From Clostridium sp. (GTDB lineage Bacteria; Bacillota_A; Clostridia; Lachnospirales; Lachnospiraceae), in the NCBI GenBank assembly GCA_023666975.1, contig JAMPAW010000064.1, positions 1 through 17,698 on the forward strand: a stretch of DNA of 17,698 nucleotides. The letters run 5' to 3'. Below, in pieces: positions 2,866 to 16,448 of the stretch (positions are counted from its first letter, which is position 1; every line of letters starts with the position of its first letter). The notes beneath the pieces are model-generated. The model was not told where the DNA came from and did no database searches. It was given only the letters and a program-made list of their open reading frames with translations. Made by a program: the position numbers and the translations under genes.

Positions 2866-3285
2866 CTATTTGCCTTTTTTCATCAATTCACAAAACTCTT
2901 CCGGCGTGATTGCTTTTGTTTCCGCCATGGCAAAATCTTTCTTATTTCTTGTCACAATATAGTCTGCCGCTACACTAGCTGCACATCTGTCCTGCAGACA
3001 GTCTTCAAAGTCCTGAAAGCCAGAATTTTCTATTGCCTTAACCACTTCTTCCTGATCTGCACCTGCAACGGTAAGCACCTTGCAAATATTCAATAAAATC
3101 TCCCTGCGGATTTTTTCAGGCGATTTCCTCAATATAAACCAAATGTTCGAGAGTGAATGGAATGCCACATACCCATTTACACCGTCCTCACCGCACCATG
3201 TCATCACAGCTTTAGAAGCTTTATAAAATTCTTCTCTTTCACAGTAATAATCAATAATTATATTTGCATCAACCAATACTACCAT
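2866..3285 (-). CDS. PIN-domain toxin (VapC-like, PIN_3 type), pair 1
   Basis: This 139-residue protein has the PIN ribonuclease layout. The opening [11 protein letters not shown] carries Asp6, an acidic cluster DFEDCLQ (Asp92, Glu94, Asp95) lies in the second half, and [12 protein letters not shown] carries Asp108 and Asp117. Together these form the metal-binding acidic site of PIN nucleases. [12 protein letters not shown] (43-54) is a conserved feature shared with the neighbouring toxin. PIN toxins cut RNA, often tRNA, and are held inactive by a cognate antitoxin. The open frame extends upstream to 3327, but the ATG at 3285 is the better start: it aligns with the PIN fold start and has a GAGGG site 9 bases upstream. 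It overlaps the antitoxin gene by 17 bases, so translation is probably coupled. The RNA target is unknown. Confidence 0.85.
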
Positions 3286-3544
3286 ATTTTGCGGCCCTCG
3301 CTTCTTCCAGTTCTCTGTCAGGATCAAAATCTGTAGGGAAAGTAAACTCTGCCCTCAATTCTTCCATTCTCATAAGCGCTTTCTTCTTGTCAGATAACGG
3401 CTCCTGCAAATCCATTCTGCCGACATCCGAATCTCCTATCTTCACAGACCGGGCATATGCCCTGATAATCTCCAATAGCGGCTCTCTATATGCTTCGCCT
3501 ATCCCAGACACAGATTGAAGCACCTGCTTTTCCCATGCAGACAT
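3269..3544 (-). CDS. Putative antitoxin of PIN pair 1
   Basis: This 91-residue, charged and largely helical protein precedes a PIN toxin and overlaps it by 17 bases, which is the usual antitoxin-first order. The frame is open from a GTG at 3556, but the ATG at 3544 is chosen because AAAGGTGG lies 8 bases before it. The N-terminus shows no clear helix-turn-helix or ribbon-helix-helix motif by eye. The C-terminus ends in [12 protein letters not shown], which resembles the last residues of the neighbouring antitoxin (AQAREEKYAGID). That end is probably the toxin-binding segment, by analogy with other PIN antitoxins. The codons for this tail also carry the toxin's ribosome binding site. The function is inferred mainly from context. 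Confidence 0.72.
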   Translation of the reverse strand: MSAWEKQVLQSVSGIGEAYREPLLEIIRAYARSVKIGDSDVGRMDLQEPLSDKKKALMRMEELRAEFTFPTDFDPDRELEEARAAKYGSIG

Positions 3545-3559
3545 TTTCCATACCACCTT

Positions 3560-3679: not shown

Positions 3680-4093
3680 CTATTCACATTTTTTCAAAAA
3701 ATCCTCTGGCAAAACTGCCGGGATTCTCGAATGAGCAAAATCTTTTACATTCCTTGTCACAATATAATCCGCTGTCATTGCAACTGCGCACTCTTCCTGA
3801 AGGCAATCCTCCAAATCCAAGAAATCCTTATTATCAATAGCTGAGATGACTTTATACGAATCCAGTCCCTCCACTTTGACAATCTGGCAGAGATCTTTTA
3901 ATACCTTTCGGCGTTCTTCATCAGACATAGTTTTTCTCAAAATATAAAAGATATTCGGGACAGAATGAGCAGCCATTTTCCCTTCAACTTTTTTGTCCGC
4001 ACACAACTTAATGATACGGTCCGCAAAATCATAGTAAGGCTGACGTCCCATCAAAGCGTCAAGCAGAATATTCGTATCAATCAATACCCGCAT
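3680..4093 (-). CDS. PIN-domain toxin (VapC-like, PIN_3 type), pair 2
   Basis: This 137-residue PIN ribonuclease-like toxin is paralogous to the one at 2866-3285. Both share HS-x-x-NI-x-x-ILRK, (D/E)DCLQ and [12 protein letters not shown], and by eye roughly a third of positions are identical. Putative catalytic acids are Asp6 in VLIDTNILLD, Asp93/Glu95/Asp96 in FLDLEDCLQ, Asp109 and Asp118. The frame is open upstream to 4135, but the ATG at 4093 fits the family start and has GGAGG 6 bases before it. It overlaps the antitoxin gene by exactly 17 bases, the same overlap as in pair 1. It would act in the cytoplasm on an unknown RNA when not bound by antitoxin. Confidence 0.86.
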   Translation of the reverse strand: MRVLIDTNILLDALMGRQPYYDFADRIIKLCADKKVEGKMAAHSVPNIFYILRKTMSDEERRKVLKDLCQIVKVEGLDSYKVISAIDNKDFLDLEDCLQEECAVAMTADYIVTRNVKDFAHSRIPAVLPEDFLKKCE

Positions 4094-4322
4094 ATTTCTC
4101 CTCCCTTGCCTGCGCCAGCTCTGCCTTATAATCAATATCTACCTCACTACATCTGCGGAATTTCTGTAAATCTTCATATGCCATCTGCTCTAATGTCTTT
4201 TCTCCATCAGATACAGGTGAAGCCAAAACATCCATTCCCTCAAGCAACTGTACAATATGATATACTTTATCATCAGGCAAACGCCGTATCATCTCAAACG
4301 CTCTTTTCTGTATTGCTGTCAT
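4077..4322 (-). CDS. Putative antitoxin of PIN pair 2
   Basis: This 81-residue protein is encoded immediately before a PIN toxin. The ATG at 4322 has AAAGGAG 9 bases upstream. The N-terminal half (IQKRAFEMIRRLPDDKVYHI, residues 4-23) looks helical, and its LPDDK-x-Y-x-I-x-x-L pattern is common in small Firmicute antitoxin-like proteins. The C-terminal tail AQAREEKYAGID resembles that of the other antitoxin here and is probably the toxin-neutralising peptide. A candidate promoter with a palindrome over its -10 box lies about 70 bases upstream, fitting the autoregulation usual for type II systems. No DNA-binding motif is obvious, so the operator role is an inference. It is the first gene of the minus-strand cluster. 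Confidence 0.75.
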   Translation of the reverse strand: MTAIQKRAFEMIRRLPDDKVYHIVQLLEGMDVLASPVSDGEKTLEQMAYEDLQKFRRCSEVDIDYKAELAQAREEKYAGID

Positions 4323-5857: not shown

Positions 5858-7456
5858 ATGAACAAACAGGACAAAAAGCTGGCATTATCAGTGCTGGCGG
5901 CACTAGCAGCGGGAATCGCATTAATCTATACGATGATTATGTATCATGACATTATTTTTGCTGTTGCGGGAATGAGCGTAATATTCCTGATTACTGCATT
6001 TATTATGACACAGAATATTATTGCTTTTGTCTCAAAACAGAATACCTCTTACAATGTTCGTATGCGTGACAGCATAGATGACATTTCCTCATTAATCGAG
6101 AACATCAACAATATGCAGACACGGATCGCCAAGGCCAATTTCATCTATACCAGACAGATTGCTCAATCCGTGGTAACGTTAGAAAACAATTATATGGAAA
6201 GCCAGGAAGCGCTCTACAAGAATTTATCCTACATATCCAATGCTCAGAACAAATCTACCAAATTAATGATAAAATATGATTTAAGCAATACCACCAAACT
6301 TATCTCGACGCTGAAGGATTTGCGCAATCAGTTGAGCAATACGATGATACAGGGGTTTGACCAGATTCAGCCGAATAACACGGATATGGTATCTCTCTTG
6401 GAAGATATCGTCAATTATCTGAAGGCACAGCCCTCAGGAATAGATGAGGAAATGAGTAACCAGCTAAACACGCTGGCACAAGAACTACAAAATATATCCC
6501 ACAATATTGAGCACATTCAAATCCCTTCGGCCGCCACCCCTGCAAATATGGCAGGCATGAACAGCACAGCTGATGACTTGACCGAAGCTTTCCCACAGGC
6601 AAGCAGTGCCAGTCTCGACGACCTGCTCGGTTCTTTGCAGCCGGAAGACAACGGCAGTTCTTCTCCTGTAGAGGACAGCAGCAGCCTTGATGACCTGCTC
6701 AGTGCTTCTCAAGCTGAACACAACGACAGCCTTGACGACCTGCTTGGTGCTTCGCAGCCAGAAGACAACGGCAGTTCTTCTCCGGTAGAAGACAGTGACA
6801 GCCTTGATGACCTGCTCAGTGCTTCGCAAGCTGAACACAGCGACAGCCTCGATGACCTGCTCGGTGCTTTGCAGCCGGAAGACAACAGCAGTTCTTCTCC
6901 GGCAGAAGACAGTACCAGCCTTGACGACATACTCAGTGCTTCACAGAGCGAAAACAGCGACAGTCTCGATGACCTGCTTGAGACAGCCAACGAACTCGAT
7001 GTCTTACTTGGTGCTTCTCAGGCAGAGGAATCACACAACCTTGAAGAAGCCGCCACTCCAACTTTTACGGTCATTGACGGTTCACAGCCAAAGGAGGAGG
7101 CAGTACAGACGGACACAATGGACAATGCAAATAAGCAGCTTTCGCCTGACGAAATCAGTGCACTTTTTGCTGCCGCAGAACCCGCTCCAAAGAAAGCGGA
7201 GGCTGCGCCACAACCGGCATCTCCTGCAGCACCTGCTGATGATAACCCGAACAAACAGTTATCTTCCGATGAAATCGCTGCACTGTTTGCCGCGGCAGAA
7301 CCCGCGCCGGCAAAGGACGCTTTGGCAGAAGAAAAGAAAATGGACGAAGCGATTGCAAAAGCCACTCCGGAACCGCCTACACTGGCCGACCTTCCGAATG
7401 ACCCAAACAAGCAGCTCTCTCCTGATGAAATCGCTGCCTTGTTTGCCTCTATGTAA
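5858..7456 (+). CDS. Membrane protein with coiled coil, SLDDLL repeats and FliM-like LSxDEIxALF motifs; function unknown
   Basis: I do not recognise this 532-residue protein as a named family. It starts at an ATG with GGAGG about 9 bases upstream. Two hydrophobic helices (about 8-27 and 32-54) form a hairpin. Charged flanks (KQDKK before, SKQ...VRMR after) predict both ends in the cytosol. Residues 65-225 look helical or coiled-coil, rich in Asn and Gln. Residues 252-374 are a 39-residue unit in three copies, each holding two SLDD(L/I)L motifs at spacings of 24 and 15, with acidic Ser-rich linkers; a seventh motif starts at 369 and ELDVLL at 379. Residues 425-532 hold three copies of NKQLS(P/S)DEI(A/S)ALF (425, 465, 517), joined by Ala/Pro linkers. 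The last ends three residues from the C-terminus (ALFASM). LSxDEIxALL is the N-terminal peptide of FliM and FliY that binds CheY-type proteins. A scaffold that recruits a cytosolic partner through many short motifs is plausible but is inference. Confidence 0.85.
   Translation: MNKQDKKLALSVLAALAAGIALIYTMIMYHDIIFAVAGMSVIFLITAFIMTQNIIAFVSKQNTSYNVRMRDSIDDISSLIENINNMQTRIAKANFIYTRQIAQSVVTLENNYMESQEALYKNLSYISNAQNKSTKLMIKYDLSNTTKLISTLKDLRNQLSNTMIQGFDQIQPNNTDMVSLLEDIVNYLKAQPSGIDEEMSNQLNTLAQELQNISHNIEHIQIPSAATPANMAGMNSTADDLTEAFPQASSASLDDLLGSLQPEDNGSSSPVEDSSSLDDLLSASQAEHNDSLDDLLGASQPEDNGSSSPVEDSDSLDDLLSASQAEHSDSLDDLLGALQPEDNSSSSPAEDSTSLDDILSASQSENSDSLDDLLETANELDVLLGASQAEESHNLEEAATPTFTVIDGSQPKEEAVQTDTMDNANKQLSPDEISALFAAAEPAPKKAEAAPQPASPAAPADDNPNKQLSSDEIAALFAAAEPAPAKDALAEEKKMDEAIAKATPEPPTLADLPNDPNKQLSPDEIAALFASM
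6611..6979 (+). repeat. 117-bp coding tandem repeat (39 residues, three copies)
   Basis: Within the membrane protein gene, AGTCTCGACGACCTGCTC-like segments encoding SLDDLL recur with alternating spacing of 72 and 45 bases, giving a 117-base super-unit repeated three times. The linkers (QPEDNGSSSPVEDS and ASQAEHNDS types) are also repeated with few changes. Near-identity at DNA level suggests recent expansion and possible copy-number variation. Confidence 0.9.
7130..7453 (+). repeat. Three coding copies of the LSxDEIxALF motif
   Basis: AATAAGCAGCTTTCGCCTGA-type segments encode NKQLSPDEISALF (residue 425), NKQLSSDEIAALF (465) and NKQLSPDEIAALF (517). The first two are followed by AAAEPAP. Spacing differs (40 then 52 residues), so the motif rather than a fixed-length unit is conserved. 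Confidence 0.88.
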
Positions 7457-10067: not shown

Positions 10068-13000
10068 TCATTTTACCTGAATCGTTATTGTTGCTTTCTT
10101 GCCACTTCCGTCTGTAGCTACAGCCGTAATCTTCGCTTTACCTTTCTTAACTCCCTGTACCACGCCTGAAGCAGAAACTACTGCAACCTTCGTGTTACTT
10201 GATTTCCAGTATACGGAATCACTTGCCTGTTTTTTATTCGGAGTAAGGGCAGTCTTTAATTTCAGTTTCTTCTTTACCTTTACGACCTTCTTAGACGCCT
10301 TGATTTTCACCTTCTTTACCGGCTTTTTCATCACTTGCACCTTAAAGGTCTTTTTCAGTCCGCCTTCCGCAGTAACCGTAATGACTGTCGTACCAGCTTT
10401 CTTACCCGCAGTAATCTGTCCATCTTCATCTACTGTTGCAATGCTCGAATTGCTGCTAGTAAAGGTTAAATCTTCCTCAGCCGCATCTTCCGGTGCAAAG
10501 GTGATATTCAGTGCCATCTTCTTCTTTGGTGCCAGCTTAAATGTACTCTTAACCGGAACATCCGATGCCCCTTTCACATCTGCCGTTATCGTCATGCCGG
10601 TAGCCTTGATTGCCTCATCATCAGCCTGACCGTTATCCTGACCACCTGTCTGACTGTCATCCTTAACCGTTATCTCAGCCTCTCCACTTATACCGCTTCC
10701 GTCATTTGCCGTTGCAATAATTTTTGCGTTACCTGCTGCAACCGCTGTAACTACACCACTTGGCGAAACAGTTGCCACTGAAGACTTACTGCTGGACCAG
10801 GTAACCGTCTTATCCGTTGCGTCAGCCGGTAACACTTCCACTGATGCCGTTGCCGTCTGCCCTTTGGTAATGCTGGCCGCAGACAGAGTAACCTTAATGG
10901 ATTCCACCGGCTTCTTCTCATCCTTTTTATCAGGGTCTTCTGAACCTTCCGGGTCTTTATAGTCCTCTCCGTCCGTCTTTTTAATTTCTATCGTAATCTT
11001 CTTGTCTGCTGCATCTATCGCCGGTTTATTGCCCTGTCCGGTTACGCTCACGGTTCCTCCGGTAATCGTCACCTTATCAGCGTCAATCGCTGCTGTATCG
11101 CCAGCTCCGCCAGTCACCGTTACGGTTCCACCCGTAATGGTTACTTCATCAGCTTCGATACCTGCTGCTCCAGTTCCGCCAGTCACCGTTACGGTTCCGT
11201 CTGTAATGGTGACTTCGCCAGCCTTAATACCTGCTGCTCCGGTTCCGCCCTGAATGGTGACCGTTCCAGTTTCTGTCTCACCCTTTGAAATGGTAACCGT
11301 TCCACCTTCAATTGCACTGGCATTCTCTGTATCCGAACCAATCTTGGATGAACCCACTAACTGTATTGTAATATTTTTGTCACCCTTAATTGCTGCCACC
11401 TCTGCATTATCCAGAATAATGGTTACATTTTCCTTCGCCACAATCGTCACATTCGGATTCTCGCCTGTAATCGTGTAAGTTCCCTCTTTTTCCAAGGTTA
11501 AGGTATTGTTGTCTACGGAAATCGTATCACCGTGGTTACCTACATAATCGGCATCCTCTAACTTGGTGACGTCTACCACGTAGCTGTCTTTCTGGGACAT
11601 CAAAGTCGTTGCCTCTACGGTGTCACTTGGCTCGCTTGCCTCCTCATCATCTGTGGCTTTATAACGGATTGCAAATGTATAGGTTGTATTTGACTCTAAG
11701 TCCACAAATACACGGGAATCCTGCCAGTCAAACTCTCCACCCTTCTTAATACCATACTGTACACCATCTACTAAATCCAACGTAATGGCATCACTTGTTC
11801 TGTCCACAATAACCGGCTTATCGTTCGGCTTTGCAGCCTGAGCCTTCTTAACCGTTCTTGTTATCTCCGTCTCAATTATATCTTTTGACTCCTGCAGCTC
11901 ATCACAGCTTACGGTAAGTTTTACCTTATAGCCATCTGTACTAACACCTTTTCCTTTTTTCAGTTTTACATAAATGTTCTCTGAATCTCCAGCAGCAACA
12001 TTCTGCAAACGGTCCACATCTATTGTAAAATCATCATCGGAAGCCAAATCCAGCTTAATCTCATCTAATGTTACATTTGTCCTATTGGTTATCGTTACCA
12101 ATATTCCTTCATCTGACGCATATCCCACTGTAAGTGGTGTCACTTCCTCTTTTACTTCGACGGTTATGCTGTCTGTAATTTCCTCATACTTCGCAATGTA
12201 TACAATATCTGCACTCACCGTTACCTTACTGCCCGGAAGTAACATTTCATCGGAACCCTCTACCGTCCAGCCTTGAGCTTTAAAGCCTTTTTTCCGTGTC
12301 AAACTTTTAAGGGTAATTTCTCCACCCACATTTACAGAATACGGTTCAGATTCAGTATCTCCTTCTTTGTAAGTAACCGTACATGTACTAACCTCGTTTC
12401 CATTTTTATCCACCGGTTTCGGAGAATATATCGGATCTGCCTTTGACTGTACCTGACAGCCATCTAATTTAATTGTAGTTGCCTGTATTGGTATTACTCC
12501 TGCATCTGCATTCGCCGTCAGACTTCCACCAAACAATTCAATAGTGTCACTGGCTTTTAGTGCTGCAGCTGTACCGCTTCCAGTAGCCGTTACCTGCCCG
12601 CTTTCCAATGTAATGCTCTCTGCATAAATGGCTCCGTCACTGTTGCCGGAAACGGTTAACGCTCCCGCTGTTGCCGTTTGACTACCGTTTTGAATCGTAA
12701 TGTCATTTCCGCTAATTCCTTCTGTAACAACATTCTTTCCAATCAGCTTAATCACTACATCCGAATCTGCCTCTAATCTCTTGAACTCTGCATTATCCAG
12801 TGTCACAGTATTGGCGCTTTCGCAGGAAATCGTAATATCATTGCCCTTGCCTGTAATTGTATAGGCCTCGTTCTCCAATAACGTAACCGTCTTCGTCTTA
12901 CTGTCATAGGAAATCGTTCCGTTATGTGCATCCACATATTTGTCGGAAATTTTTGATAAGTCTATCTTATAGCAATCCTGCTCTGACAGATAAGTGGTCA

Positions 13001-16000
13001 CCTCAAGAGCCTCGCTCGCACTACCCGCATTATAAATATCATCTGCCACAAAACGCTCAGCAAAGGTGTAGGTTGTATATGGTGATAAATTTATAAATTC
13101 ATTACTTGCCTGCCACTTATAATTTCCGCTGCCGGATTTGCAGCCATATTCAACTTTTCCCGCTCCTGCATATACAGTCAGGGTAACCGATTCTGCCGTC
13201 TTGCTGGTAAGAACCGGCTTTTCCGGTGTTTTCGGATTCGCTATTTTCTGTACGTTAAACGTAACCGTCTTTTTGGCAGAATCATAACTGTCTGTATCAT
13301 CCGGAGTAAAGACTAGCGTAAATGACTTATCTTTACTCGTTAGCGTCTTATCTGCCTCTTCCCATGAAAATGTTCCTTCTACATCGCCAACACTAAAAGC
13401 ATTCGTTCCAGTAAGCGGAATGTCAACCTCTGTCAGTTTTGTTCCTGCATTAACCGTAATGCTTGAAGGCCCGGTAATCGTCAGTTTTTTCTTCGTCACT
13501 GTAAATGCAACATTCCGGGTCACTGCACTCTTATCGGCATTAACACCTGCAACAGCTGCACTGATCTCTACATTTGCGCTGTCTTTTAATGTATATACAA
13601 CATCAGCTCCCGTCATCGAACCTTTGGCAACCGTATCCGGATTTTTCCAAGCAAAGGTTCCATAATCATCAGAGGTCTTGGAAAGTTTGATACCGCTTAG
13701 CTTTGTCCCTGCCGTTACTGTGCTGGATACTGTTGGGAAAGTAATTTCGGTGATGATTTTGGGAGAAACAGTTACACTTACTTTTCTAATTACCTTTTTG
13801 CTTGCTGTATCATATCCTGTTAATTTTGAATAGTCATAGTTCTTTGCATTTGTTGGCGTATATTCAACTTCATATTCCTTTGTACCTACAGTCGGCTTTA
13901 TAGTTGCATCTTTCCATGCATATCCGCCATAATCGTCAGAAGTTTTTGATAGTATTGCTGCTGCTAATGTCTGTCCATATGTAATACCCTTAGCTGTAGG
14001 AAATTCTATATCCGTATCCTTCAATTCCGTTTTCACTATCTCTTCTGAACCATTTGCTGCAATTCCCCCCTCATTTGCTGGACAGGTAGCCGAACTGTCA
14101 ATTGCATAATTAGAATCCAGCATTTGATCCTCATCTTCTTCATTTAAAAGATATAATGCCGCTACCGCACCAGTGAAAGCGGCATTATAATCAATTGCCA
14201 CTTCATTACAGTAGTAATCTGCTGACGAATCATGATAGGTTCCATCTGAACCCTCAATTCCTCCGACCAATGCCCCCATCAAGACATGCGCCTGTACTGC
14301 CGTTTGATATCCGCTATCAGGGAACCCACCATATCCTGATGAAGAACGATGATGTGGATACTTGCTGGAATTTTCATTATAACCTACAACATAGCACCTC
14401 TTATCCGCACTATTTCCGAGCAGAAATTTCATCTGACCGTTTGCCCATGTTGTATATTGGTCTTTGTCGGTATTTTTATCATAAATCAAACCTTCCAATT
14501 GTATATTACTGTTATATCTTGCAGATCCCCACATGCATAAATATGCATAACCGTTGCTAATTGTCGTTGTTTGGTTAATCGTTGCTGTAGCATTTGCCGC
14601 CAAAGGAGAAAAATCATCTCCTCCATAAGCCAACGCATACGGTCCTACCTGATCCCATGATGGCCAAGCTCCTGCCTCAATAGCACCCTTATTAGCATTA
14701 TATTCACTTAAATAATCGCTATCTTTTGTCGCTTTATACAACCACGCAGCCGCAAGACAATAGTCATCCGCCCATGAACTGGATGTATAAAAGGTTCCGT
14801 TATCTGTAGTCTTTGCCGCCTTTTTATTTTTCTTTGCCATTGCAAATAACTTTTTTGCATAATCAAGGTATGTCTCATTTCCGAAATTCAGGTAATGAAT
14901 TGCAAGTGCTGCTGCCGCCTCGCTCACCTGATCCGTTGCCGGATTTGAACTATCTGCAAAATAAGCAGGTCTATTAATGTTCTCTTTCTCGGCACTTACC
15001 CAATACGAGTGGGATGAACCGTCCCCGACCTGATAACAAAATGCTTGCGCATTTCCAGATCCATCCAATACAGTACACCGTACAAAATAATCACAGAAAT
15101 AATCTAAAATCGTTTTAAAATGACTTGTTTGCCCCGTTTTCGTATATGCATCCTTATACTCATAGTAGCCAATTCCTAACATGGAGGCAGTATATCCTTG
15201 TGGCAGACCAAACTTATCATGATCTCCGGCATCATGGAATCCTCCTGATACATCCACTGTTTTTCCGTTATACGTTGCCTTTTTATCAGCCAAATGACAA
15301 TTTTTTCTCCAATCTACCGCACATTTCCCCTCTAACTCACCACACATATTAGCATCATAAAAATATAACGAATATTGCAATAATTTTGCAAAATTATATT
15401 CTACTTCTAAATTTAAATTTGTTGTTGTATCTCCTTGTACACTGCCAGAACCACCAATGCTTCCGCCTCCGCCAGATCCACTGTCCACATTAGCATTATC
15501 TATAACCTTATCAAAAGCCCCTGTAGCTGAAGAACCAGTCTTATAATATACTACTACTTTGGCACTATCCACATCATTATTTCCCTTATAATTAAACTTG
15601 TATGCACCTTCTGTAGAAGAGCCGAAAGTCGTGCCAGCAGAAATAACAGCATCTCCCACTGGTGACACATACAAATAATCACTAGTATAATAAGCCTGAA
15701 CTTTCGCCCAACCTTCACTCGCCCAATTTTGTACTCCGGTAACACCCGTTAACGGAATTGCAACCACCCAATCAGAAATATTCTCTCCAGAAAGCCCATT
15801 ACTTACTTGTAAATAATACTCATGGTAATCTCCAGCAATATTACTCTTAGTAATTGTGGCTGTCACTTTAGAAGACGTACTCCCGATCTGGGCTGGGTCC
15901 GTTGCCGTATCATCCACACTGACAGAGCCAGAGGACTCCCCCTTCTTATAAATTAATGTATAGGTCGCATTTTCCAATTCTTTTGCTGCTACCTGAAAAC

Positions 16001-16448
16001 CTGCGCCACTGGCACTTTCCCCTGCGGCAATCGTGGCATTCGTCCATACGCCATCATTCCCAGTACCCTTATATGTACCTACTTTAATATTATTTCCACT
16101 TTTAGAAGCACCATTCCAGCCTGCATTAAAAGTGCTAAGACTACTGCAGGCAATGGTTAATTCCCAATCACTGATTGTCTCACTGCTTCCATTCACAATC
16201 TCAACTTTGTATTGAGTCAATGGTTCAGAAAGAACCGTACCGTCGTCCCATTGTGTTATTACTTTTTCCTCCGTTACCTTGACATGTACTGCTTTAGAAG
16301 TATCCTTCGCTCCGGTTACAGTGATCTTATCTCCTTCCGCCGCCTCAACCGTCCCAGCCGGCACCATCACCAAACTCAGCACCATCACTGCCGTGAGCAG
16401 CCATGCACTAATTCGTTTTCTCTTTCCTGTCTTTCCCATTTGTCTCAT
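10068..16448 (-). CDS. Giant secreted GH9 cellulase-like enzyme with CBM2-like, Ig-like, beta-helix and Big_2 modules
   Basis: This 2126-residue enzyme has a signal peptide (1-37, WLLTAVMVLSLVMVPAGTVEA then AEG). Two tandem CBM2-like domains (about 52-168 and 195-304) would bind cellulose, followed by a Gly/Ser linker. The GH9 catalytic domain spans about 345-768. It shows GGFHDAGDHDKFGLP with Asp406/Asp409 (base side), YPHHRSS (697-703), and YHDSSADYYCNEVAIDYNAA (738-756), which fits the second GH9 signature with Glu749 as catalytic acid. The likely reaction is hydrolysis of beta-1,4-glucans. Three MBG/YDG-like Ig repeats follow (about 809-1069). Then come two FnIII-like plus beta-helix modules (1074-1338 and 1540-1820) separated by an InlB-repeat-like segment (1355-1421) and a further beta domain, and three Big_2 domains (1846-2126). 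No dockerin, SLH or LPXTG is seen. The ATG at 16448 has AGGAG 7 bases upstream, and the CAP gene ends 18 bp before it. Confidence 0.93.
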   Translation of the reverse strand: MRQMGKTGKRKRISAWLLTAVMVLSLVMVPAGTVEAAEGDKITVTGAKDTSKAVHVKVTEEKVITQWDDGTVLSEPLTQYKVEIVNGSSETISDWELTIACSSLSTFNAGWNGASKSGNNIKVGTYKGTGNDGVWTNATIAAGESASGAGFQVAAKELENATYTLIYKKGESSGSVSVDDTATDPAQIGSTSSKVTATITKSNIAGDYHEYYLQVSNGLSGENISDWVVAIPLTGVTGVQNWASEGWAKVQAYYTSDYLYVSPVGDAVISAGTTFGSSTEGAYKFNYKGNNDVDSAKVVVYYKTGSSATGAFDKVIDNANVDSGSGGGGSIGGSGSVQGDTTTNLNLEVEYNFAKLLQYSLYFYDANMCGELEGKCAVDWRKNCHLADKKATYNGKTVDVSGGFHDAGDHDKFGLPQGYTASMLGIGYYEYKDAYTKTGQTSHFKTILDYFCDYFVRCTVLDGSGNAQAFCYQVGDGSSHSYWVSAEKENINRPAYFADSSNPATDQVSEAAAALAIHYLNFGNETYLDYAKKLFAMAKKNKKAAKTTDNGTFYTSSSWADDYCLAAAWLYKATKDSDYLSEYNANKGAIEAGAWPSWDQVGPYALAYGGDDFSPLAANATATINQTTTISNGYAYLCMWGSARYNSNIQLEGLIYDKNTDKDQYTTWANGQMKFLLGNSADKRCYVVGYNENSSKYPHHRSSSGYGGFPDSGYQTAVQAHVLMGALVGGIEGSDGTYHDSSADYYCNEVAIDYNAAFTGAVAALYLLNEEDEDQMLDSNYAIDSSATCPANEGGIAANGSEEIVKTELKDTDIEFPTAKGITYGQTLAAAILSKTSDDYGGYAWKDATIKPTVGTKEYEVEYTPTNAKNYDYSKLTGYDTASKKVIRKVSVTVSPKIITEITFPTVSSTVTAGTKLSGIKLSKTSDDYGTFAWKNPDTVAKGSMTGADVVYTLKDSANVEISAAVAGVNADKSAVTRNVAFTVTKKKLTITGPSSITVNAGTKLTEVDIPLTGTNAFSVGDVEGTFSWEEADKTLTSKDKSFTLVFTPDDTDSYDSAKKTVTFNVQKIANPKTPEKPVLTSKTAESVTLTVYAGAGKVEYGCKSGSGNYKWQASNEFINLSPYTTYTFAERFVADDIYNAGSASEALEVTTYLSEQDCYKIDLSKISDKYVDAHNGTISYDSKTKTVTLLENEAYTITGKGNDITISCESANTVTLDNAEFKRLEADSDVVIKLIGKNVVTEGISGNDITIQNGSQTATAGALTVSGNSDGAIYAESITLESGQVTATGSGTAAALKASDTIELFGGSLTANADAGVIPIQATTIKLDGCQVQSKADPIYSPKPVDKNGNEVSTCTVTYKEGDTESEPYSVNVGGEITLKSLTRKKGFKAQGWTVEGSDEMLLPGSKVTVSADIVYIAKYEEITDSITVEVKEEVTPLTVGYASDEGILVTITNRTNVTLDEIKLDLASDDDFTIDVDRLQNVAAGDSENIYVKLKKGKGVSTDGYKVKLTVSCDELQESKDIIETEITRTVKKAQAAKPNDKPVIVDRTSDAITLDLVDGVQYGIKKGGEFDWQDSRVFVDLESNTTYTFAIRYKATDDEEASEPSDTVEATTLMSQKDSYVVDVTKLEDADYVGNHGDTISVDNNTLTLEKEGTYTITGENPNVTIVAKENVTIILDNAEVAAIKGDKNITIQLVGSSKIGSDTENASAIEGGTVTISKGETETGTVTIQGGTGAAGIKAGEVTITDGTVTVTGGTGAAGIEADEVTITGGTVTVTGGAGDTAAIDADKVTITGGTVSVTGQGNKPAIDAADKKITIEIKKTDGEDYKDPEGSEDPDKKDEKKPVESIKVTLSAASITKGQTATASVEVLPADATDKTVTWSSSKSSVATVSPSGVVTAVAAGNAKIIATANDGSGISGEAEITVKDDSQTGGQDNGQADDEAIKATGMTITADVKGASDVPVKSTFKLAPKKKMALNITFAPEDAAEEDLTFTSSNSSIATVDEDGQITAGKKAGTTVITVTAEGGLKKTFKVQVMKKPVKKVKIKASKKVVKVKKKLKLKTALTPNKKQASDSVYWKSSNTKVAVVSASGVVQGVKKGKAKITAVATDGSGKKATITIQVK
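11036..11237 (-). repeat. Coding tandem repeat, about 70 bp, in the second beta-helix module
   Basis: Residues 1738-1805 of the GH9 protein repeat a 23-24 residue unit of the form (G/D)(E/K)VTIT(D/G)GTV(T/S)VTG, three times, each one likely one coil of a right-handed beta-helix. At DNA level blocks such as GCCAGTCACCGTTACGGTTC are identical between copies, so unequal recombination could change the number of coils. Confidence 0.85.

Follow-up and report, generated by a model that had tools for sequence, protein, structure and literature searches.

What might a membrane protein do whose tail carries, several times over, a peptide resembling one from the flagellar motor? The question is raised by an open reading frame (ORF) at positions 5858-7456 on the forward strand of contig JAMPAW010000064.1 of Clostridium sp. 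(Lachnospiraceae; assembly GCA_023666975.1), the whole analysed stretch of 17,698 nucleotides being called the window here. Because the peptide resembles that of the motor and the relatives of the 532-residue product are found almost only in carriers of flagella genes, this uncharacterised protein may be an unrecognised part of the steering or placement of flagella. More specifically, we read it, with a probability of roughly 0.5, as a membrane-tethered multivalent docking scaffold for a reader of the FliM/FliY peptide, most likely phosphorylated CheY (CheY~P) or the receiver of CheV. If this is true, the chemotaxis or flagellar placement of gut bacteria such as Roseburia and Agathobacter would gain a new component, in which the EIDAL peptide, familiar as an element of the flagellar C-ring that is read by CheY and FlhG, is presented in tandem on a membrane anchor. 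Two questions would thereby become testable, namely how cells deal with CheY~P or CheV at sites other than the motor, and what places non-polar flagella, the spatial cues in peritrichous Bacillus subtilis having been called unclear (PMC12826062; sources with PMC numbers are cited from excerpts).

Conservation of the FliM-like peptide

The ORF begins with ATG, a few bases downstream of a GGAGG sequence, and the layout of its product defines what we term family A: proteins with a two-helix anchor, a helical stalk and a tail ended by the motif. The seven SLDD(L/I)L and three LSxDEIxALF peptides listed in the initial annotation are all where it had placed them, and the three-fold 39-residue repeat that it described is recovered as a tandem repeat of 117 bases:

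5858..7456, forward strand: family-A gene, encoding the membrane-anchored FliM-like motif array protein (ORF reading, protein search, alignment)
5885..5941, forward strand: predicted transmembrane helix 1, residues 10-28 (hydropathy; AlphaFold2 helix 3-28)
5951..6007, forward strand: predicted transmembrane helix 2, residues 32-50, continuous with the stalk helix (hydropathy; AlphaFold2)
6008..6514, forward strand: conserved, predicted cytosolic helical stalk, residues 51-219 (alignments; AlphaFold2 core model)
6610..6978, forward strand: 117-base tandem repeat, 39 residues in 3.2 copies, bearing the SLDD(L/I)L peptides (repeat analysis)
7058..7084, forward strand: PTFTVIDGS segment, residues 401-409, reading PTFTVVGKS in relatives (alignment)
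7130..7168, forward strand: FliM-like motif 1, NKQLSPDEISALF, residue 425 (alignment; AlphaFold2 helix 430-439)
7250..7288, forward strand: FliM-like motif 2, NKQLSSDEIAALF, residue 465 (alignment; AlphaFold2 helix 470-480)
7406..7444, forward strand: FliM-like motif 3, NKQLSPDEIAALF, residue 517, at the extreme C-terminus (alignment; AlphaFold2 helix 522-531)

The SLDD(L/I)L peptides stand at residues 252, 276, 291, 315, 330, 354 and 369, the seventh ending at 6979. The three peptides nearer the C-terminus follow the pattern NKQLSxDEIxALF with the core form LSxDEI(A/S)ALF, and the array peptide that we regard as a candidate ligand for CheY, the CheV receiver or FlhG is NKQLSPDEIAALFAS. Shuffled versions of the 307-residue tail held a mean of 0.0012 FliM-like motifs, and three motifs arose in none of 20,000 shuffles.

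These two sets of motifs are unequal in standing. A protein search returned 406 proteins at E ≤ 1e-3, the best 120 of which, the window protein included, were examined as closer relatives. The LSxDEI-type motif is present in three to five copies in all 120, with one copy ending no more than six residues from the C-terminus in each, whereas two or more LDD(L/I)L copies are seen in only four. These counts thus point to the FliM-like peptide as the family's conserved device and to the SLDDLL repeats as a local elaboration. The segment PTFTV(V/I)(G/D)(K/G)S is also kept among relatives, and the stalk segment NAQNKSTKLMIKYDLSNTTKL is still recognisable in distant family members. That the tail is a functionless low-complexity expansion would agree with the SLDDLL repeats, which are lineage-specific and whose 117-base copies show 88% matches at the DNA level, but the LSxDEI motif is kept at the same C-terminal place in divergent members in which the intervening sequence is not; we regard this explanation as very improbable for the tail, and for the LSxDEI motif these comparisons already disfavour it.

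A scan of genome contigs gave 91 confirmed loci, 80 of which were examined, and is biased towards the motif because its patterns included DEIAALFA. Among these loci, divergent family-A proteins share the layout at 14-24% identity to the window protein in the core, and those of Roseburia faecis (L073), Agathobacter ruminis (L069) and Anaerosacchariphilus polymeriproducens (L065) all end in the motif. A less biased set came from a profile of the core that excluded the tail, for which 40 matches were taken and 39 proteins recovered (that of L132 was missed by the ORF calls). The motif begins 13-15 residues from the end in 31 of these 39, with C-terminal variants such as MSPDDIAALL, MTPEEIAALI and LSPEEIAKLF; among the remaining eight, three reach a contig end (L131, L136, L142), two carry the near-variants LGPDEIAALF and MDPDDIAALI (L150, L158), and three (L159, L160, L161) are tail-less matches whose genomes hold another copy with the motif. 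Conservation among orthologues, on which the docking proposal of the initial annotation depended, is thus found both in the closer relatives and in these further members.

Second family-A core matches beside the main one are present in six genomes (G105, G385, G381, G016, G170 and G343; loci L159, L160, L161 and L231), several of them being frames of about 190-220 residues. At L136 (genome G143, contig C85), the family-A protein is cut off at the contig end, where the sequence MSPCLLYTSPSP resembles a sequencing-adapter artefact.

Predicted topology and structure

Over 29 aligned sequences, the window protein included, lysine and arginine residues number 77 ahead of the first transmembrane helix and 92 within the 20 residues that follow the second, against 19 in the loop. 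Since this distribution fits the positive-inside rule, both termini are predicted to be cytosolic (N-in/C-in), in agreement with the inward-facing two-helix anchor proposed initially and with a tail that lies inside the cell. An AlphaFold2 model of the core built from the same number of sequences has helices at 3-28 and 33-139 along with shorter ones (mean predicted local distance difference test score, pLDDT, 65; predicted template modelling score, pTM, 0.29), while that of the full protein, from 12 sequences, has helices at 3-28, 30-140, 145-169, 175-190 and 197-219 (mean pLDDT 53.5, pTM 0.19, the tail mostly below 50). Because the confidence is low, both models were used for secondary structure alone; at that level they are consistent with the long helical region of the initial annotation, extending up to residue 219. 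The short tail helices listed above coincide with the three LSxDEI sites, with mean pLDDT over ten-residue blocks of 61, 62 and 74, and further tail helices appear at lower values (276-296, 317-324, 332-338, 356-361, 371-388 and 488-502). The acidic tail is accordingly predicted to be disordered and borne on a long helical stalk.

This outline recalls HubP/FimV, in which a membrane anchor and a long acidic cytosolic repeat region are used in docking (PMC8789113); the window protein likewise has a predicted membrane anchor and acidic cytosolic repeats, aspartate and glutamate making up 22% of its tail. By analogy, it might be a HubP/FimV-like membrane landmark, the acidic repeats of which recruit several clients, a chemotaxis receiver being one of them. 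The window protein differs, however, in its two-helix hairpin anchor and its FliM-like motifs, and the Pfam scan matched neither LysM nor a C-terminal FimV/TPR domain in it; we find such a landmark rather improbable. It would overlap with both the docking scaffold for a chemotaxis receiver and the FlhG alternative considered below, since one landmark could serve several of these ends.

Distribution with flagella and chemotaxis genes

Within our sample, family A is confined to flagellated Lachnospiraceae. The sample consists of 396 Lachnospiraceae genomes, drawn evenly, the presence lists of which were compared by reading; FliM (PF02154) has matches in 202 of them and CheV (E ≤ 1e-40) in 189. 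The family-A core is present in 69 genomes at E ≤ 1e-3 and in 63 at E ≤ 1e-5. FliM accompanies it in 62 of these 63, the exception, G337, being a 1.7-Mb assembly that has FliG (Fisher's exact test of family A against FliM alone, which ignores phylogeny, 1.3e-19). CheV too is found in 62 of the 63 (G224 is without it), and FlhF exceeds its curated cut-off in the same number, with a partial match just below the cut-off in G102. Hence the sample does not show homologues to be common in genomes devoid of flagella genes, which would have spoken against the initial annotation. The six weaker core matches, with E between 1e-5 and 1e-3, divide into four genomes with FliM and two with neither FliM nor FliG.

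All 17 genomes of chosen loci have FliM, among them G001, where CheV and a CheA-type domain are present too and whose locus L001 is the nearest to the window among the 80 loci, at 73% identity. In 313 genomes of the class, which may include other Lachnospiraceae, family A was found in four, all belonging to the Lachnospiraceae sample. A DNA pattern for DEIAALF matched 26 of the 396 genomes, five of them encoding DEIAAFF through the degeneracy of YTN; of the other 21, 19 have FliM, G210 has FliG, and G069, with a single match, has neither, while the reversed control pattern matched one genome.

Likeness to the FliM/FliY peptide

The EIDAL motif of FliM is bound by CheY (PMC6946799), the alpha4-beta5-alpha5 face of which contacts the FliM N-terminal helix (PMC11528121). 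In genomes G011, G012, G013 and G016, which also carry the array motif or its LGADEIAALF variant, FliM starts with LSQNEID(S/A/N)LL or LSQSEIDSLL, and the adjacent gene, which we read as FliY-like by position and sequence, starts with LSQDEINALL, LSQEEIDALL or LGQDEINALL. The array and FliM/FliY peptides are both of the type L-S-x-[DE]-E-I-x-x-L-[LF] and both occur in flagellated bacteria; in the window protein, however, three or more copies end a membrane-anchored tail, and the Pfam scan found no match in it to the FliM middle domain (PF02154), CheC-like or SPOA domains. At the level of single residues, LSPDEIAALF agrees with LSQDEINALL at 7/10 positions and with the other FliM/FliY starts at 5 or 6, and against the pattern L-S-x-x-E-I-[DN]-x-L-L the window motif has Ala or Ser at position 7 and Phe at position 10. 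As at least 7/10 identities to a FliM/FliY peptide arise somewhere in 45 of 3,000 shuffled versions of the whole window protein, the likeness taken alone is modest. The case for a FliM-type motif rests on this likeness in combination with the flagella-only distribution, the variants closer to FliM in the second family described below, and the CheV link of that family.

Such shuffles lend some weight to the idea that the tail serves another motility or cell-envelope partner, the FliM likeness being convergent and the co-occurrence reflecting a shared regulon or ancestry. That the Asp of EIDAL is mostly absent, and that some copies lie near parA/parB- or dnaB-like genes (judged by eye), would suit this explanation as well; the near-fixed positions, the flagella-only distribution and the CheV link nevertheless agree in direction, and we think it unlikely.

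A second family beside cheV

A link to a chemotaxis receiver protein emerges from ten of the 80 loci (L028, L045, L046, L047, L053, L056, L058, L059, L061 and L064, with L046 and L058 in pieces), which encode a different protein, here family B. Its predicted layout comprises a cytosolic disordered motif-rich part, a lysine-rich stretch, one transmembrane helix and an outside C-terminal part. In all seven loci that are uncut on that side, cheV lies upstream of the family-B gene, directly or one gene apart, a representative CheV having CheW (8.5e-31) and receiver (4.8e-17) domains.

We extended this set with 100 further CheV stretches, chosen by hand and not at random, from which 99 CheV proteins were recovered. 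Family B was called as the longest same-strand ORF of more than 350 residues with a hydrophobic segment, located in the interval from cheV to a hisH-like gene or else within the four genes that come next; on this definition 88 loci have it, eight do not, and three were dropped, the long neighbour being another gene. A joint profile of the transmembrane and C-terminal parts matches all 88 at 1e-5, having been built from those 88; when only the 19 motif-bearing members are used to build a profile, it recovers all 69 others at the same limit. The family-A profile matches none of the 88. The FliM-like motif is present in these 19 of 88 in one copy (e.g., LSQDEISALL) to ten. Judged from these profiles, this class of motif is thus shared by two membrane proteins that are unrelated to each other, and the gene for one of them is found alongside that for a chemotaxis receiver protein. 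In 76 of the 88 (e.g., L059:2110-4857) a YLDxLL-type peptide lies close to the N-terminus; it is of a type akin to the window protein's SLDDLL repeats and is possibly a second docking peptide. Lysine and arginine sum to 690 in the 20 residues before the transmembrane helix against 217 in the 20 after it, which places the motif part inside the cell.

This link also bears on the view that the tail docks FlhG, a MinD-like ATPase, making the protein a membrane landmark or reservoir that would help to decide the place and number of flagella. The FliM N-terminus mediates the interaction of FlhG with FliM, and in B. subtilis FlhG also interacts with FliY (PMC12826062); its partner FlhF is over cut-off in nearly all family-A genomes, as given above. 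But the gene counted there is FlhF and not FlhG, its presence does not discriminate between the explanations, and the other family with the motif goes with cheV rather than with flhF or flhG. We hold FlhG to be the main alternative partner, though an unlikely one.

An apparent mutual exclusion between family A and an array in family B (0/37 against 19/51; Fisher 7.8e-6) was rejected: on the CheV tree the presence of family A changes nine times and that of the family-B array 12 times, and because independent pairs show no effect, shared ancestry explains the pattern as well as function does.

A recurrent gene order in flagellated Lachnospiraceae runs cheV, a gene of about 190-330 residues with a VLVGxGEE motif, family B, and genes judged by eye to be like hisH, hisF and ung; it is seen at L059:290-6914 and whole or in part at L045, L046, L053 and L061. 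The VLVGxGEE gene is absent in some, and the two examples tested have no Pfam match.

Proposed docking on the tail

Taken together, the conserved motif, the core confined to flagellated genomes, the CheV link, the inside tail and the FliM/FliY peptides of the same type lead us to favour the docking scaffold for a chemotaxis receiver. In this model, the two-helix hairpin would fix the protein to the membrane, both of its termini being cytosolic, and the long helical stalk would hold the disordered acidic tail out in the cytosol. There the tail would display an EIDAL-type peptide, like that at the FliM/FliY N-terminus, in three copies (three to five in close relatives). A reader of such peptides, with the receiver domain of CheY~P or CheV as the likeliest candidate, would dock on these copies and so accumulate at the membrane rather than at the motor, the outcome being either a buffering of CheY~P or a positioning of the chemosensory machinery, which are not separable here. 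The multivalent docking platform envisaged in the initial annotation thus gains from motif conservation, from the flagellated genomes and from the inside topology, but its SLDDLL repeats do not stand as a conserved part, nor does a receiver as a proven partner: FlhG also binds the FliM N-terminus, and most motif copies are without the EIDAL Asp.

Several observations weigh against this model. The arrays mostly have Ala at position 7, where FliM and FliY have Asp or Asn, and often Phe at position 10; as a double change of Ile and Asp in Caulobacter FliM abolishes the binding of CleA (PMC5677366), the prevalence of Ala for Asp counts on the same side. The cheV-adjacent protein is without the motif in family-A genomes (0/37). 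All 99 CheV receivers (L085-L124, L165-L224) keep the phospho-acceptor Asp and have Gln at the aromatic switch position, because of which they may not switch in the manner of CheY; non-canonical CheV switch residues are also known in MotV-bearing gamma-proteobacteria (PMC8789113). Among the 40 most widespread neighbour clusters, the only one of chemotaxis type (CheV, by eye) belongs to family-B loci, so the family-A genes have no chemotaxis-type neighbours there. Finally, the co-occurrence statistics ignore phylogeny, and partial family-A matches occur in two genomes with neither FliM nor FliG, G118 (1.9e-4) and G312 (2.8e-4), which were left out of the count because they are weaker than the 1e-5 limit.

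A wider proposal, which we put forward tentatively, is that chemotaxis or flagellar control in flagellated Lachnospiraceae includes a membrane-bound layer that has gone unrecognised: membrane proteins of unrelated families would have independently acquired tandem FliM-like arrays that capture CheY~P or CheV off the motor, as a multivalent sink or an organising centre, and the SLDDLL peptides of the window protein, together with the YLDxLL peptides of its cheV-adjacent counterpart, would represent a related docking peptide of a second kind.

Comparison with known families and systems

The initial annotation knew of no named family with this layout, and the domain databases concur, barring matches to Prok_Ub (PF14454) confined to the motif. 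No NCBIfam family exceeds its cut-off in the window protein, four family-A relatives or three family-B proteins, and no Pfam family does so in the window protein or in three relatives each from families A and B, apart from Prok_Ub in two relatives (27.6 and 26.6 bits against a cut-off of 25; E down to 2.6e-06). In the window protein, Pfam at E ≤ 0.1 returns only sub-threshold Prok_Ub (14 bits) and HAMP (0.072), and no methyl-accepting chemotaxis protein (MCP) signalling domain. We take Prok_Ub as a chance match, because the alignment covers only the motif itself (18-21 of 64 model positions), and HAMP was set aside as lying below its cut-off. In the literature searched, the string DEIAALF was not found, nor are tandem FliM-like arrays described in the titles and abstract openings listed for CheY, FliM, FliY, CheV, CheZ and FlhG, subscription journals being mostly outside the coverage of either search. 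What the sequences suggest is a new architecture built around an already known docking peptide.

The extreme C-terminal placement of a peptide is shared with CheZ, whose C-terminal peptide reportedly binds CheY (Guhaniyogi et al. 2006, as referenced in PMC11528121 and PMC3084719). In sequence, the CheZ peptide presumably resembles the array motifs. The window protein, unlike CheZ, is membrane-anchored by prediction, has multiple copies of the peptide, and shows no phosphatase domain. FipA, a membrane protein that interacts with FlhF, and GpsB, a cell-cycle regulator that interacts with FlhG (PMC12826062), are linked to flagellar placement through these partners; their homology to the window protein was checked by the Pfam and NCBIfam scans only.

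Neighbouring genes in the window

Genes for AzlC and AzlD (Pfam) precede the family-A gene on its own strand, and the three long downstream genes scanned, on the opposite strand, encode DUF6273/Big_2, GH9/Big_2 and CAP-domain proteins; no motility gene is present among these. Genes like parA and parB, read by eye, occur on the family-A stretches of seven other loci (L036, L044, L050, L054, L057, L065 and L069). The GH9 glycoside hydrolase with Big_2 is a large gene (10068-16448, reverse strand), and similar large genes occur on the stretches of 10 other family-A loci. Two genes with PIN_3 domains (2866-3556 and 3680-4322, reverse strand) each adjoin a small unmatched ORF, in a layout like that of toxin-antitoxin pairs.
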